Origin: Clostridiales bacterium
GTDB lineage: Bacteria > Bacillota > Clostridia > Lachnospirales > JAQSXR01
NCBI GenBank assembly: GCA_029256575.1
Contig: JAQSXR010000027.1
Coordinates: 1-51,138 of the forward strand
DNA: 51,138 nt
Direction of reading: 5' to 3'
Below, one piece after another: positions 31,286 through 36,843 of the stretch (its first letter is position 1; each line of letters opens with the position of its first letter). Both the position numbers and the translations under genes were made by a program. The notes under the pieces are model-generated. The model worked only from the letters and a program-made list of their open reading frames with translations, searched no databases and was not told the DNA's origin.

Positions 31286-33187
31286 ATCGAGTAGGAGGTA
31301 GTTGATTATTTCAACTACCGACCTCTCACACCACCGTGCGTACCGTTCGGTACACGGCGGTTCCTTAGTTTTCACAAACTTTCATATAATAGTCAGCCAT
31401 AGAGATATACCCTAGGTTGACTATTTCTTTGTTGGTTAGTACACTATTTAACATTATGGTTGAACGCCATATACCTTTACGGCAATTAGCGAATTCGTGT
31501 ACTACCCAATCTGGTAGGTTGTATTTTCTCAGCATCTTATACCTAGTCTTTACTTTCTTCCATTGTTTCCAATAAATTGCCCGTATTTTACGTCTAAGCC
31601 ATTCATCTGTAGCTATCACTAATGTTTTCATATCGGATAGGCTAAAATAATTTATCCATCCTTTTATGAATTGTGTTAGCTTCAATGCTCTGTAATCATT
31701 ACTCCATCCATTATTTCTAGCTGTAAGCTCCCTAATTCGGTTCTTCATCTTTTCAATGGACTTTGCATGTACTCTGAACCTACATTCTCCTCTAAATCTG
31801 TAGAAACTATAACCAAGGTATTTCACTTTACTTATATGTGCTACCGAGGTTTTCTCACGGTTAACTTTTAGGAATAGCTTTTCCTCAATAAAAGGAATGA
31901 TGTTCGTTAAGGTTCTTAATGCACTCTTTCTGCTTTTGCAAAATATCATACAATCGTCTGCATAGCGAACAAATCTATGTCCCCTACGTGTTAGTTCCTT
32001 ATCTAGTTCATTAAGCATTATGTTACTAAGCAGTGGACTTAGTGGTCCCCCTTGTGGCACTCCTACTTCTGTTCTTTCAAACAGTCCTTTTTGTACCACT
32101 CCCGCATTTAGATACTTGTGTATCAACGAGATAACTCTGCCATCTTTGATGGTTCGTGATAGGATTTCTATCAACTTACTTTGGCATACCGTATCAAAGA
32201 ACTTTTCTAAGTCCATATCTACTACATACGCAAAGCCATCGTTTACATTTTGTCGGCATTGTTTAAGGGCGTCATGGGCTCCTCTGTTTGGTCGAAAGCC
32301 AAAACTATAGTCTGAAAATTGCTCCTCGAATATCGGGGATAGTATTTGTGTAGTTGCTTGTTGTATAACTCGGTCAACTACAGTCGGTATTCCCAGCTTT
32401 CTAAACTTACCCTTTTCTTCTTTGGGTATTTCAACCCTACGGACTGGATTTGGTTTATATTTCCCATCTTTTATCTTTTGGATAAGTTGCTTTTGGTTGT
32501 CTCTGAGAAACGTTAGAAGTTCATCTACGCTCATCCCATCAACTCCACCAGCTCCTTTGTTTGATTTTACTTTCTTGTACGCATTGTTTAGATTGTCTTT
32601 GTGTAAAATCAATTCCATTAGATTGTCCGTTTGAAAGTCTGTGATGGTGCGGTTGTTTTCAGCAATCCTCTGATGGGCGAACACTTCTGCATACTCTTTC
32701 TGTTCCGCAGATACCATTTGCAGATAGTCCTCATTATGAAGTTGTCTGTTCTTAAATCCATCTTTGGTTACATTCATTTACTCACACCTCCTAAAGTTCA
32801 GTCCTTCCCAACACATTTGCAACCGCATTGGTACTATGACCTCGGCTGACTTCTCACGATAAATCTTGTTTCAACCGTAATTACAAATGTTATATTGTAT
32901 TATTACGTCCGTGAGACCTCCCCAGGTAAGAGCGCAATCTTTCTCTCCATCTATCTGCCACATTTACAATAGTTGATTCCGAGTAGTTATTGGACTTTGA
33001 CTTGTCTTGCAGCCTTATCCTCAACTGTTGCCTGATGTGATTTCTGTTCGTCAGACCAGAGATTTGCCTACACCTTCCTTCAGATTCCATCTCACGATGG
33101 ACACCCTTGGTGTTCAGCTATGTCTTTCCCACTACTAGGGCAGACTAGGGACTTTCACCCATTAGATTGCGCCCTTGCTGGGCGCAC
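31286..33187 (-). mobile_element. Group II intron with maturase gene
   Basis: The 5' end on the minus strand is GTGCGCCCAGCAAGGGCG (33187 leftwards), a canonical group II start. The 3' end shows domain V (CCGTGTACCGAACGGTACGC, about 31335-31355) and domain VI (GGTAGTTGA paired with TCAACTACC), ending CTCGAT at 31286 in the expected A-Y. The total is about 1.9 kb with the reverse transcriptase in domain IV. It is inserted six bases past a terminator hairpin (33194-33225). The element looks complete and may be mobile. Boundaries are read from motifs, and the 3' end could be off by a few bases. Confidence 0.88.
31365..32777 (-). CDS. ltrA: Group II intron reverse transcriptase/maturase
   Basis: A 470-residue protein. 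Reverse transcriptase motifs: VEIPKEEKGKFRKLGIPTV (domain 2), YVVDMDLEKFFDTV, GVPQGGPLSPLL and the active site RYADDCMIF. A maturase (X) domain follows, with GWINYFSLSDMKTL. There is no C-terminal HNH endonuclease domain, so integration would rely on replication forks or nicked targets. The ATG is preceded by TAGGAGGTGTGAGTAA. The protein splices and mobilises the surrounding intron. Confidence 0.95.
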   Translation of the reverse strand: MNVTKDGFKNRQLHNEDYLQMVSAEQKEYAEVFAHQRIAENNRTITDFQTDNLMELILHKDNLNNAYKKVKSNKGAGGVDGMSVDELLTFLRDNQKQLIQKIKDGKYKPNPVRRVEIPKEEKGKFRKLGIPTVVDRVIQQATTQILSPIFEEQFSDYSFGFRPNRGAHDALKQCRQNVNDGFAYVVDMDLEKFFDTVCQSKLIEILSRTIKDGRVISLIHKYLNAGVVQKGLFERTEVGVPQGGPLSPLLSNIMLNELDKELTRRGHRFVRYADDCMIFCKSRKSALRTLTNIIPFIEEKLFLKVNREKTSVAHISKVKYLGYSFYRFRGECRFRVHAKSIEKMKNRIRELTARNNGWSNDYRALKLTQFIKGWINYFSLSDMKTLVIATDEWLRRKIRAIYWKQWKKVKTRYKMLRKYNLPDWVVHEFANCRKGIWRSTIMLNSVLTNKEIVNLGYISMADYYMKVCEN

Positions 33188-33234: not shown

Positions 33235-34902
33235 CTAAATATTGGTTTTTATTGAGGCATTCCATAACTTACCGAAATATTGGTTATGGTCTAAGAGCTC
33301 CTTAAAATCACCCACTCCAACAATTTCACCATCTTTGAATGCATAAATTCTCTCAACATTTTTAATTGTATTCAAACGATGAGCAATAATAATAATTGTT
33401 TTATTTTTCAAAAATCGATTTCATTTTTCATTACCAATTCTTCTGTAACATTATCCATTACTGAAGTAGCTTCGTCTAAAATAACGATTTTTGCATCTCC
33501 AAAAAATACTCTTACCCGAAAGTAGAACACCTCTTTCTCCAACTTCTGTAGCGAGTCCTTTGGGTAGAGCATCATAAAATGATGTGAGCCCTACTCGTTC
33601 TAATACTTCAATAATTGCATAATCTGAAACATCTTTGTCAAACACGATATTCTCTCTTAAGGCTCCATCAAAAACAGGCGATTCCTGCGAAGTATATGAA
33701 ATGTAATTATAGAAATGATTCAAGTTAAGCTCTGACAAATCATGATTATCGATATAAATTCTTCCTGAATCTGGCTTAATAAGCCCCATTATTTGCTTCA
33801 CAATTGTTGATTTTCCAGAACCACTTTCCCCTACAAATGCAGTTGAACTCCCAGTAGATATATCAAAAGATAAATCCTGAAAGATATTCTTCTCATTATA
33901 GGAAAAGCACACATTTTCAAATGAGATATTCCCCTCAATGGAAGTTACTAACTTTCCAGAAATCAATCTAACGTCATCTGACAAATCCAATAAATCCTCA
34001 TATCGCCTAAAAGCACTTATATCCAATTTAAATTGCACAAACAATACATTAAATATAGCAATGGGCGAATATGCCTTGTCGATTAAAAGCAGCAAAGCAA
34101 CTACAGCACCTGCTGACAATGAATTGTTTTTCCAACTAATGAATATAATAATCACTTTTACTAGCGTAATAAATAATGCGAAAATAGCAAAAAACGCTTC
34201 ATGAATCATCCTCATTTTCGTCGTTGATTTTACAATTTCTTCAGATGCAGTTGTTGATTGTCTTATCTCATGCTCAAACCTTTTATTTGTCCGAAAGACA
34301 ACCAATTCCATAAAACCACGAACTATATATTTATTGAAGATTTCCTCATTGTTTAAAATGTGTTCTTTAATTTTATATAAATATTTCAGTAAGATATTAG
34401 TTATCACAAAGACAAATACATAACCAATTGCAATATAAATCATAATATTCTTATCAATATTGGCAATGAAAATCAAACTAAAAACCATACTAGGTATCAA
34501 TTCACCTAATAATCGAAAGTAAAAGTCAAATAATATACTTCTACCTGCGTTCGCTCCATTTTCTATTTTTTGAATTAAATTTCCTGTCCCCAATGATTGA
34601 TAGCATTGGTAGTCTATGGTACTTATTTTTCTCAATGCTTTCAACTTAAAGTCCAAGTATATGCTTTGTGACAATTTGCAACTTGGATATTCATTAAAAT
34701 AGTTTATGCAACAAATCTGTACTAAAATAAACCCATAAATATATATTGTTGTAATTGAAAGGGACCTATATCCAAAACCATCTAATACCTTTTGAAAATA
34801 GTTGGCGCTAAACGCATTTAACAAAGCCAATACTATTCCCAATAATATGTAAACAGCAACTAATATTTTCTTCTTGTTTAAAATTTCTAAATAATGTTTC
34901 AT
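33235..34902 (-). pseudogene. ABC exporter half-transporter (membrane plus ATPase), two lesions
   Basis: An exporter-type fusion: about six membrane segments (residues 1-300), then the ATPase with Walker A GESGSGKST and Q-loop YTSQESPVFDGALREN. Lesion one removes the ABC signature. After VGERGVLLSG the sequence jumps to the equivalent of RVFFGDAKIVILDEATS in another frame, so roughly 28 bases with the Q-K-Q-R helix are gone. Lesion two is a missing base near 33415: EIDF is followed by a stop, where one added T gives FLKNKTIIIIAHRLNTIKN with the switch His. The rest, to FGKLWNASIKTNI, is preserved. Relatives export drugs or peptides. A leader peptide/hairpin system precedes it. Confidence 0.85.
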
Positions 34903-35022
34903 AACTGTACTCCTTCTAATATTTAATTTTAATTTTTATTTAAAATTAGTACAGTTGAGAATGCCAGCAGATAAAATTAACCTCAGTACAATCTGCTAAC
35001 AGATTATATCAACTGTACTGAG
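34903..35022 (-). promoter_or_regulatory. Translational attenuator with mutually exclusive hairpins
   Basis: In the mRNA order, region 1 (35009-35022) overlaps the end of a leader peptide gene; then come region 2 (34982-34990), region 3 (34948-34958) and region 4 (34903-34911) at the exporter ribosome binding site. Fold A pairs 1 with 2 (CTCAGTACA/TGTACTGAG, plus inner AATCTG/CAGATT) and 3 with 4 (AACTGTACT/AGTACAGTT). The latter covers the spacer up to the ATG and the end of AGAAGGAG. Fold B pairs 1 with 3 (11 bases, AGTACAGTTGA/TCAACTGTACT) with an inner AGCAGAT/ATCTGCT stem, leaving the ribosome binding site free. Fold choice would depend on ribosomes on the leader. Confidence 0.65.
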
Positions 35023-35045
35023 TATTTACTTCGTTTCATTCTCAT
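35004..35045 (-). CDS. Leader peptide of the ABC exporter, 13 residues
   Basis: Reads MRMKRSKYSVQLI and a stop. GGAAG stands ten bases before the ATG. Its last codons and stop form region 1 of the attenuator, so a stalled or translating ribosome would directly change the folding. Leader peptides of this kind precede ribosome-targeting-drug exporters (such as bmrCD in Bacillus) and erm genes. The basic, hydrophobic-ended sequence is compatible with drug-dependent stalling, but this is inference. Confidence 0.55.
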   Translation of the reverse strand: MRMKRSKYSVQLI

Positions 35046-35125
35046 TATGAGGACACTTCCTTTCAATATTTGACATTCAAGTAAAAGTATACTTCATAAC
35101 TTCGATTTTAGCTATATAATTTAAA

Positions 35126-35166
35126 TACTTGTATGAAACACTCTTCATTGGCGTTCCATACAAGTA
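35126..35166 (-). terminator. Inverted repeat after the XRE/membrane-protein operon
   Basis: TACTTGTATG (35126-35135) pairs perfectly with CATACAAGTA (35157-35166) around a 21-base loop; on the minus strand TATTTAAATTATA follows. Another small hairpin (GGAACATA/TATGTTCC, 35178-35196) stands nearer the stop. Together they probably end the operon. Confidence 0.5.
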
Positions 35167-35203
35167 CATTCATTTATGGAACATAAAATATGTTCCCGCC
35201 CAA

Positions 35204-35695
35204 CTATTCGTCTTTCTCATCTTCATCCAACCGCTTTTGAATTTTCGATTGTTTTTTCTTGTTCAGAAAATCAAGGCACGACAGTAAAATAAAAACGGTG
35301 ACGGTTGAGCTGATAAATGAAACTGCCAACGTAGCGATAAAAAAGCCAATTCCATCCTCTTTATAGTTTTCTGCATATCTTGTATAGTTTAAAACGCCGT
35401 TAATCACTGTTACTGTAATTCCGGTCACTATACTGTTCACCAAAGGAATATTTTTTACCCGTTTTCCTTCGCCGTATATATTAAGTCCGAGCGTCATATA
35501 TCGTACTATCATATAGATGGAAACTCCAAATAAACATATGAACTCAGCGGCATATTGCTCAAACGGAGCATCAAGCAAAAATTGTTGTACAAGAATTGAA
35601 GCGAGAAGCACTATCATTAAAATGCTGTATGCTTCGCTATTTATTTTACGTTTTTGTGCTGATACTCTTTCGTCCTGCATGTTTTGTCTTTTCAT
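35204..35695 (-). CDS. Four-helix membrane protein co-encoded with an XRE regulator
   Basis: A 163-residue protein with four hydrophobic segments (about residues 23-40, 48-66, 85-105 and 120-142) and a strongly charged Lys/Asp/Glu tail. Small proteins of this type commonly follow short XRE regulators in Bacillota (DUF6773-like); the function is unknown. The ATG at 35693-35695 overlaps the regulator stop (ATGA) and has GGGAGGAAT just upstream, so it is preferred over the longer frame. Confidence 0.7.
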   Translation of the reverse strand: MKRQNMQDERVSAQKRKINSEAYSILMIVLLASILVQQFLLDAPFEQYAAEFICLFGVSIYMIVRYMTLGLNIYGEGKRVKNIPLVNSIVTGITVTVINGVLNYTRYAENYKEDGIGFFIATLAVSFISSTVTVFILLSCLDFLNKKKQSKIQKRLDEDEKDE

Positions 35696-36260: not shown

Positions 36261-36536
36261 ATGATTCAAATTAGACCTGTCTCAGATTTGAGAAACAAAT
36301 TTCCTGAAATAGAAAGTGTTGTACAAGAGGGTGAACCTGTTTACTTAACAAAAAATGGTTATGGATCTATGGTTGTTATGAGTCTGGAAAAATATGCAGA
36401 GCTTACAGATGATATTGAATTTAAATTAGATGAAGCGGATAAAGCAGCGGCTATAGATAACACCAGACATACTCATAAAGAAGTATTTTCAAAAGTAAGG
36501 GAGAGAATAAATGGCGGAAAGAAGTTACGCTCTTAG
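36261..36536 (+). CDS. Phd/YefM-type antitoxin
   Basis: A 91-residue antitoxin with the conserved N-terminal DNA-binding fold (IRPVSDLRNKFPEI, VYLTKNGYGSMVVMSLEKY) and a charged C-terminal tail that would wrap the toxin. AAGGAG stands nine bases before the ATG. It should repress its own operon through the sites at 36199-36229. It is stable in complex and degraded under stress in characterised relatives. It overlaps the toxin gene by 26 bases. Confidence 0.9.
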   Translation: MIQIRPVSDLRNKFPEIESVVQEGEPVYLTKNGYGSMVVMSLEKYAELTDDIEFKLDEADKAAAIDNTRHTHKEVFSKVRERINGGKKLRS

Positions 36537-36843
36537 ATATTTACCGATATTTGAAAAAGACTTAGCCGAAACAGTAGATTACATCTCTTATAAATTGAAG
36601 AATCCCATAGCCGCAAATAACTTTATTAACGATGTAGAACAGTCTATTATGGATAGGTTAAAGTGTCCCGAAAGCTTTGAAACTTATCCATCTATTAAAT
36701 ACCGTAAGTACCCATATTACCGGATTTACGTAAAGAATTTCGTAATATATTATGTAGTTATTGATGATGAATCAGATGATATAAAAATTATGGAAATAAG
36801 ACGATTATTGTATAACAAAAGGGATAGAAGTAAATTAATTTAA
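36511..36843 (+). CDS. RelE/ParE-family toxin
   Basis: A 110-residue toxin of the RelE/ParE fold: YLPIFEKDLAETVDYISYKL, then a core with YPYYRIYVKNFVIYYVVIDD and IKIMEIRRLLYNKRD. RelE-type members cut mRNA on the ribosome; ParE-type members poison gyrase. Sequence alone does not decide between them. The intact length and overlap with the antitoxin gene indicate a functional module. It is the second gene of one of the few plus-strand transcripts in the window. Confidence 0.88.
   Translation: MAERSYALRYLPIFEKDLAETVDYISYKLKNPIAANNFINDVEQSIMDRLKCPESFETYPSIKYRKYPYYRIYVKNFVIYYVVIDDESDDIKIMEIRRLLYNKRDRSKLI

Follow-up and report, generated by a model that had tools for sequence, protein, structure and literature searches.

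A putative translational attenuator with competing RNA helices upstream of ABC exporter, methyltransferase and other resistance-type genes

Results

Features of the locus

The window, which is the whole stretch of 51,138 nucleotides analysed here (contig JAQSXR010000027.1 of a Clostridiales bacterium, assembly GCA_029256575.1), carries on its minus strand a gene for an ABC exporter, preceded by a very short leader gene and a series of complementary RNA segments (Table 1). The exporter is broken, as the initial annotation had proposed: its open reading frame stops after 483 amino acids within the ATPase domain, and the similarity to an intact Clostridium protein of 564 amino acids (79%) runs on past this stop to position 33238. 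Intact copies of the exporter are present in several Clostridium species. Directly downstream of the broken gene, a group II intron was recognised at 31286-33101 (minus strand, three Rfam matches), with its reverse-transcriptase ORF at 31365-32777. Two overlapping small genes at 36261-36843 (plus strand) resemble in sequence a Phd/YefM-type antitoxin and a RelE/ParE-type toxin. Searching plasmid DNA with the exporter region gave only short matches to ABC domains, and no match was found in the viral contigs searched.

Table 1. Positions of the leader, the pairing segments and the exporter gene in the window.
Feature	Position	Strand	Evidence
Leader ribosome-binding site GAAAGGAAG	35056-35064	-	sequence; SD-like site and in-frame start in 66/67 copies
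Leader peptide gene, MRMKRSKYSVQLI and stop	35004-35045	-	frame kept in 66/67 copies; other frames 1/67 and 0/67
Codon 4 (AAA), predicted P-site codon of the activating stall	35034-35036	-	ribosome-masking computation
Codon 5 (CGA, Arg), predicted A-site codon of the activating stall	35031-35033	-	ribosome masking; CGA in 50/67
Segment 1, partner of segment 2 or segment 3	35009-35022	-	leader end; alignment pairing and tree-aware test
Segment 2a, partner of 2b within the 1:3 fold (ON state)	34991-35002	-	pairing, covariation, tree-aware test
Segment 2, partner of segment 1 (OFF state)	34982-34993	-	98.6% of cells paired; 8 compensatory branches, null mean 0.9, 0/300
Segment 2b	34961-34972	-	pairing, covariation, tree-aware test
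Segment 3, partner of segment 1 (ON) or segment 4 (OFF)	34948-34958	-	alignment pairing; opening-energy test
Exporter ribosome-binding site AAGGAG	34910-34915	-	sequence
Segment 4, pairs with segment 3, predicted to hide the exporter start	34903-34911	-	80.7% of cells paired; opening-energy z>1 in 38/41
ABC exporter (membrane domain and ATPase), inactivated; open frame ends at 33451	33238-34902	-	

The leader gene of 13 codons plus stop codes for MRMKRSKYSVQLI, and the SD sequence GAAAGGAAG about 10 nt 5' of it provides the separate ribosome-binding site that had been claimed for it. All of the complementarities noted in the initial annotation are likewise present. Segment 1 pairs with segment 2 through 12 base pairs, two of them G-U, or alternatively with segment 3 through 11 pairs, and positions 34956-34948 of segment 3 can instead pair with segment 4, which adjoins the ribosome-binding site of the exporter (start at 34902). 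Helix 2a:2b, which had been missed, nests within the 1:3 fold. Folding of the minus-strand RNA, which had been suggested as a check, yielded -42.3 kcal/mol, far more stable than the shuffled sequences (mean -27.8 kcal/mol; z -4.0, 0/200). The combination of helices 1:2 and 3:4 (OFF fold) was calculated at -41.2 kcal/mol, compared to -36.6 kcal/mol for helices 1:3 and 2a:2b (ON fold).

Distribution and downstream genes

A protein search with the exporter returned close orthologues from Clostridium species (73-85% identical) and a distant one from Enterococcus. Every close Clostridium orthologue matched over its full length is directly preceded by the leader and the segments, and the element was present at 7/7 of the close orthologues examined (L002, L003, L004, L005, L007, L016 and L022), including an exporter pseudogene in C. 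manihotivorum (L022). A lack of conservation of the leader or the pairing upstream of orthologous exporters had been named beforehand as an outcome that would refute the proposal, and this outcome did not occur. The Enterococcus copy has the layout of the Clostridium copies in quite different letters. Because it was the only one with the element among ten enterococcal relatives of the exporter (about 45% identical), the element is not general to such exporters.

A first covariance model made from six copies matched 37/207 genomes of the Clostridium family and 17/295 genomes of the window's own order, while a second one built on 41 copies also found the element in other clostridial families, in 14/246 Lactobacillales genomes, in other families of the phylum and on two mobilizable Lactobacillaceae plasmids. 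The two models together provided 67 copies, with one match per genome in the genome searches, ranging from Clostridium and other clostridial families to Enterococcus/Lactobacillales and the plasmids. The plasmid copies (L091 2357-2441 and L093 2359-2442), from Levilactobacillus brevis and Lactiplantibacillus plantarum, precede methyltransferase genes and lie beside a MobQ relaxase and a replication initiator. As its sequence comes close to an inverted repeat, the element was also matched weakly by the second model on the opposite strand (L003 4886-4980, minus strand; also L005, L007, L016, L024 and L037). A match to skipping-rope RNA (RF02924) lies near one copy (L053 405-484, minus strand), and in two loci (L022 and L026) segment 3 is separated from the exporter start by about 110 additional bases, including another stretch that looks structured.

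Rfam gave no credible match at gathering or permissive thresholds for the window, nor at the permissive threshold for seven representative loci, and we found no description of the element in the literature, the coverage of which was partial, so that priority cannot be excluded. Within these limits, the earlier statement that no element of this sequence is known still holds. Judged by its conservation, we take the element to be a real and apparently undescribed switch.

Analysis by tblastn revealed a gene for a class I SAM methyltransferase downstream of 43 copies (44 when a degenerate methyltransferase fragment at L071 is counted), an ABC exporter downstream of 17 including the window, a radical-SAM protein of two kinds downstream of four and an MFS efflux protein downstream of one; nothing recognisable followed the copy at L024. 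The initial annotation had described a translational attenuator upstream of an ABC exporter: the attenuator is supported, but it is not specific for exporters, the methyltransferase being the commonest gene downstream. The genes make up a typical resistance-type list, with functions that are inferred in the absence of functional data. A structure model of the methyltransferase (mean pLDDT 92.9) retrieved the 23S rRNA methyltransferase RlmA as top hit of a fold search, yet only with a TM of about 0.57 and among many other class I methyltransferases, so that the substrate is not fixed by this search. A Fusobacterium relative of the methyltransferase lacks the element. At L052, the methyltransferase frame continues into dicarboxylate symporter-like sequence (1622-2914), an apparent fusion or rearrangement.

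Covariation of the competing helices

The pairing of the segments was evaluated on a plain MAFFT alignment of 41 copies (A5), which was fitted to no structure. Despite sharing segment 1, helices 1:2 and 1:3 were paired in 98.6% and 97.7% of the cells, followed by 2a:2b with 89% and 3:4 with 80.7%. The OFF helices were 91% paired with 46 double-change cells (18.1 in shuffles), and the ON helices 92.9% with 53 (16.4 in shuffles). No shuffle out of 500 reached the covariation score of either the OFF or the ON helices; for double changes that keep pairing, this applied to nearly all measures, with 2/500 for one of them. Sliding the partner out of register lowered the pairing to 25-51%, and RNAalifold alone predicted helices 1:3 and 2a:2b.

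Because kinship inflates the counts of double changes, we added a tree-aware null with substitutions placed at random on the tree (300 simulations). Compensatory changes occurred on 8 branches for helix 1:2 (null 0.9), on 5 for helix 1:3 (null 0.9) and on 7 for helix 2a:2b (null 1.4), in each case with 0/300 simulations reaching these values. Helix 3:4 did not exceed this null (2 branches vs. 1.0, 78/300). Because the register of its 3' partner differs among clades, we additionally applied a register-free test, in which the region from segment 3 to the start hid the SD more than shuffled upstream sequence did in 38/41 copies (mean z 2.7); the exceptions were three close exporter copies (L016, L004 and L002), in which the SD was hidden no more than with shuffled sequence. 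The sequestering helix 3:4 is thus supported in 38/41 copies by the start-site test, but not by the tree-aware null.

Among the copies provided by the covariance-model search, which had been recommended, the competing helices covary across the phylum, and the two exclusive folds postulated for the window recur with compensatory changes, beyond chance, in an arrangement common to the 67 copies. Sequence comparison thus demonstrates the leader, the two helices that compete for segment 1 (1:2 and 1:3), the nested helix 2a:2b and the association with genes for efflux, methyltransferase and radical-SAM proteins.

Translation of the leader and conservation at codon 5

An SD-led frame runs through segment 1 in 66/67 copies, compared to one and none for the other two frames. 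Towards its end, the peptide shows no conservation as such, since several leaders stop after YSI or YLV and others continue through segment 2, with the stop ranging from codon 11 to beyond segment 2. The fixed part is the stretch from codon 5 to codon 9 (R-x-N-Y-S) together with its distance from segment 1, preceded by 2-8 residues, most often 4. An element conserved only as structured DNA or RNA, such as a protein-binding or mRNA-stability element with an incidental leader ORF, might be expected to have the strong inverted repeats observed and to tolerate the variable stop and the variable residues after Val (YSI-stop, YLV-stop), but it is hard to reconcile with the preference for a single frame, the covariation of mutually exclusive helices and the fixed spacing to codon 5, and we regard it as very improbable.

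Codon 5 is CGA in 50/67 copies, and all arginines at this position are encoded by CGA, a codon which accounts for only 6-18% of the arginine codons in the element loci. The other 17 copies have different codons, Tyr and Asp included. Codon 5 ends in A in 61/67 copies, even when it specifies Leu, Pro, Ser, Thr or Val, and codon 6 ends in T in 64/67 despite amino acid changes (codons 5-6 at 35033-35028 in the window). We could not account for this conservation of third bases by the peptide alone.

Effect of a stalled ribosome on the start site

We placed a 30-nt ribosome footprint at every position of 41 copies and computed the cost of opening the SD of the main gene, using a folding model that assumes equilibrium and is not co-transcriptional. 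The mean cost was 3.24 kcal/mol without a ribosome, fell to 2.27 kcal/mol with the front edge at columns 7-8 (35021-35020 in the window) and amounted to 5.4-5.6 kcal/mol once the ribosome covered segment 1. The corresponding values for the window were 6.3 kcal/mol without a ribosome, 0.8 at column 8 and 6.4 over segment 1. The contrast between the best stall and later ribosome positions was strong (34/41 copies, p = 5e-8), whereas that to the state without a ribosome was modest, with only 23/41 copies opening by more than 0.5 kcal/mol (p = 0.012); some copies (L053, L054) were already open without a ribosome.

A stall just before segment 1 opens the SD in these computations because helix 1:2 starts three bases earlier in segment 1 than helix 1:3. 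Toeprints lie 15-16 nt from the P-site codon (PMC6851288); by this measure, codon 4 would occupy the P site and codon 5 the A site at the best front edge. The A-site codon predicted by masking is therefore the one that was singled out independently by conservation. The stall position that opens the start is computed from the equilibrium model; that a stall occurs at all is inferred, without any expression data.

These values also bear on the classical erm-type logic, in which a stalled ribosome masks all of segment 1, segment 2 captures segment 3 and segment 4 is set free. The location of segment 1 within the leader, as in ermC-type attenuators (whose switching is described generally in PMC4191407), would allow for such a circuit, but segments 2 and 3 share just a GUAC core, from which no useful helix can form, and in most copies the start opens less easily once segment 1 is covered. 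We therefore consider this explanation improbable.

The main rival concerns the trigger, which might not be a drug but slow decoding of CGA, a rare codon, a shortage of its tRNA, or translation that is slow overall. Such a codon-level attenuator would agree with the exclusive use of CGA for arginine at codon 5 (50/50), with the third base A kept alongside other residues and with the computed position of the A site. The 17 copies with another codon do not fit, the regulated genes resemble drug resistance rather than arginine metabolism, and the conservation at base level could alternatively reflect a constraint on the RNA. In our opinion, the codon-level explanation is unlikely, without being negligible.

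For the reading we prefer, a pause caused by a ribosome-targeting drug, the cause is likewise inferred; we consider it likely in the absence of induction data. When a macrolide is bound to the ribosome, an A-site arginine serves poorly as acceptor, as described for the tlrB leader (PMC6851288). We also considered a simple macrolide sensor based on the R/K-X-R/K motif for the whole family and found it unsupported: with codon 5 in the A site, the motif occurs in just 8/67 leaders (with codon 4 in the A site, in 23/67), too few to claim such a sensor for the family.

Discussion

Proposed mechanism

In the proposed default state, leader ribosomes would run through segment 1, or segment 1 would pair with segment 2 once the latter is made; the freed segment 3 could then pair with segment 4, hiding the start of the main gene (OFF). 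If a ribosome paused early, its P site holding codon 4 and its A site the conserved Arg/CGA codon 5, its front edge would reach only two or three bases into segment 1 (the CUC clamp). This would weaken helix 1:2 and leave the rest of segment 1 available to segment 3, so that helix 1:3 could form nearly whole and, with 2a:2b nested inside, would take segment 3 off the start site (ON). Run-through or a later stall would favour helix 3:4. The initial annotation had not gone into this logic, with its stall directly ahead of segment 1.

Most likely, the downstream genes are turned on by a ribosome pause early in a tiny peptide. We hold it to be probable that the element acts in cis as a translational attenuator whose circuit logic is its own and which is turned on when ribosomes pause after about four residues. 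We lean only slightly towards the broader proposition of an undescribed, phylum-wide class of ribosome-sensing RNA switches, in which the ribosome would pause at CGA (Arg) after about four residues, just short of the switching strand, and which, on mobilizable plasmids as well, would have been recruited before four or more gene families that are not related to one another. If true, a single element would mark an uncharacterised methyltransferase family, ABC and MFS pumps and radical-SAM proteins as parts of one stress response, probably to a ribosome-targeting compound, and the leader would offer a direct handle on finding the inducer of a circuit that differs from the textbook erm arrangement.

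Comparison with known attenuators

The element resembles the bmrB-bmrCD system of B. subtilis (PMC4191407) in having a leader peptide before an ABC exporter and alternative RNA folds. The bmrCD genes, coding for a multidrug ABC exporter, are controlled by transcription attenuation with a leader of 53 residues (PMC4191407), which raises the question of whether our leader might likewise control a terminator. Unlike in bmrCD, no terminator-like site was found in the region 34880-35350 of the window, and on the 3' side the pairing involves the main gene's own start site, which leaves transcription attenuation barely credible here.

The yxjB/tlrB leader of Bacillus subtilis (PMC6851288) has in common with the translational attenuator we propose the short leader, a hairpin hiding the SD of a methyltransferase gene and a ribosome stalled with Arg in the A site, the last being a prediction in our case. 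In tlrB leaders, the stall takes place at R/K-X-R/K, where the peptide of 9 residues ends, and these leaders additionally govern a terminator with NusG pausing (PMC6851288). In contrast, the conserved Arg of our element is near the start of the leader, R/K-X-R/K is present at the predicted register in only the few leaders mentioned, a terminator was not found, and the methyltransferase bears only a remote similarity to RlmA.

With the ermC-type translational attenuators of rRNA methyltransferase genes, the element has in common a short leader peptide with its own ribosome-binding site and competing, mutually exclusive hairpins, one fold of which hides the start of the resistance gene, even though helix 3:4 itself is not above the tree-aware null. 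The ermC-defining capture of segment 3 by segment 2 upon masking of segment 1 is not met, as the complementarity is limited to GUAC and masking does not open the start. We therefore regard the system as erm-type-like translational attenuation without one defining feature of the circuit, the 2:3 helix. Unlike in the ermC type, the anti-sequestering helix is 1:3, with 2a:2b nested inside it, the activating ribosome would have to stop just before segment 1 and not on it, the nascent chain at the predicted stall would comprise only about four residues, and one family of elements serves at least four gene families.
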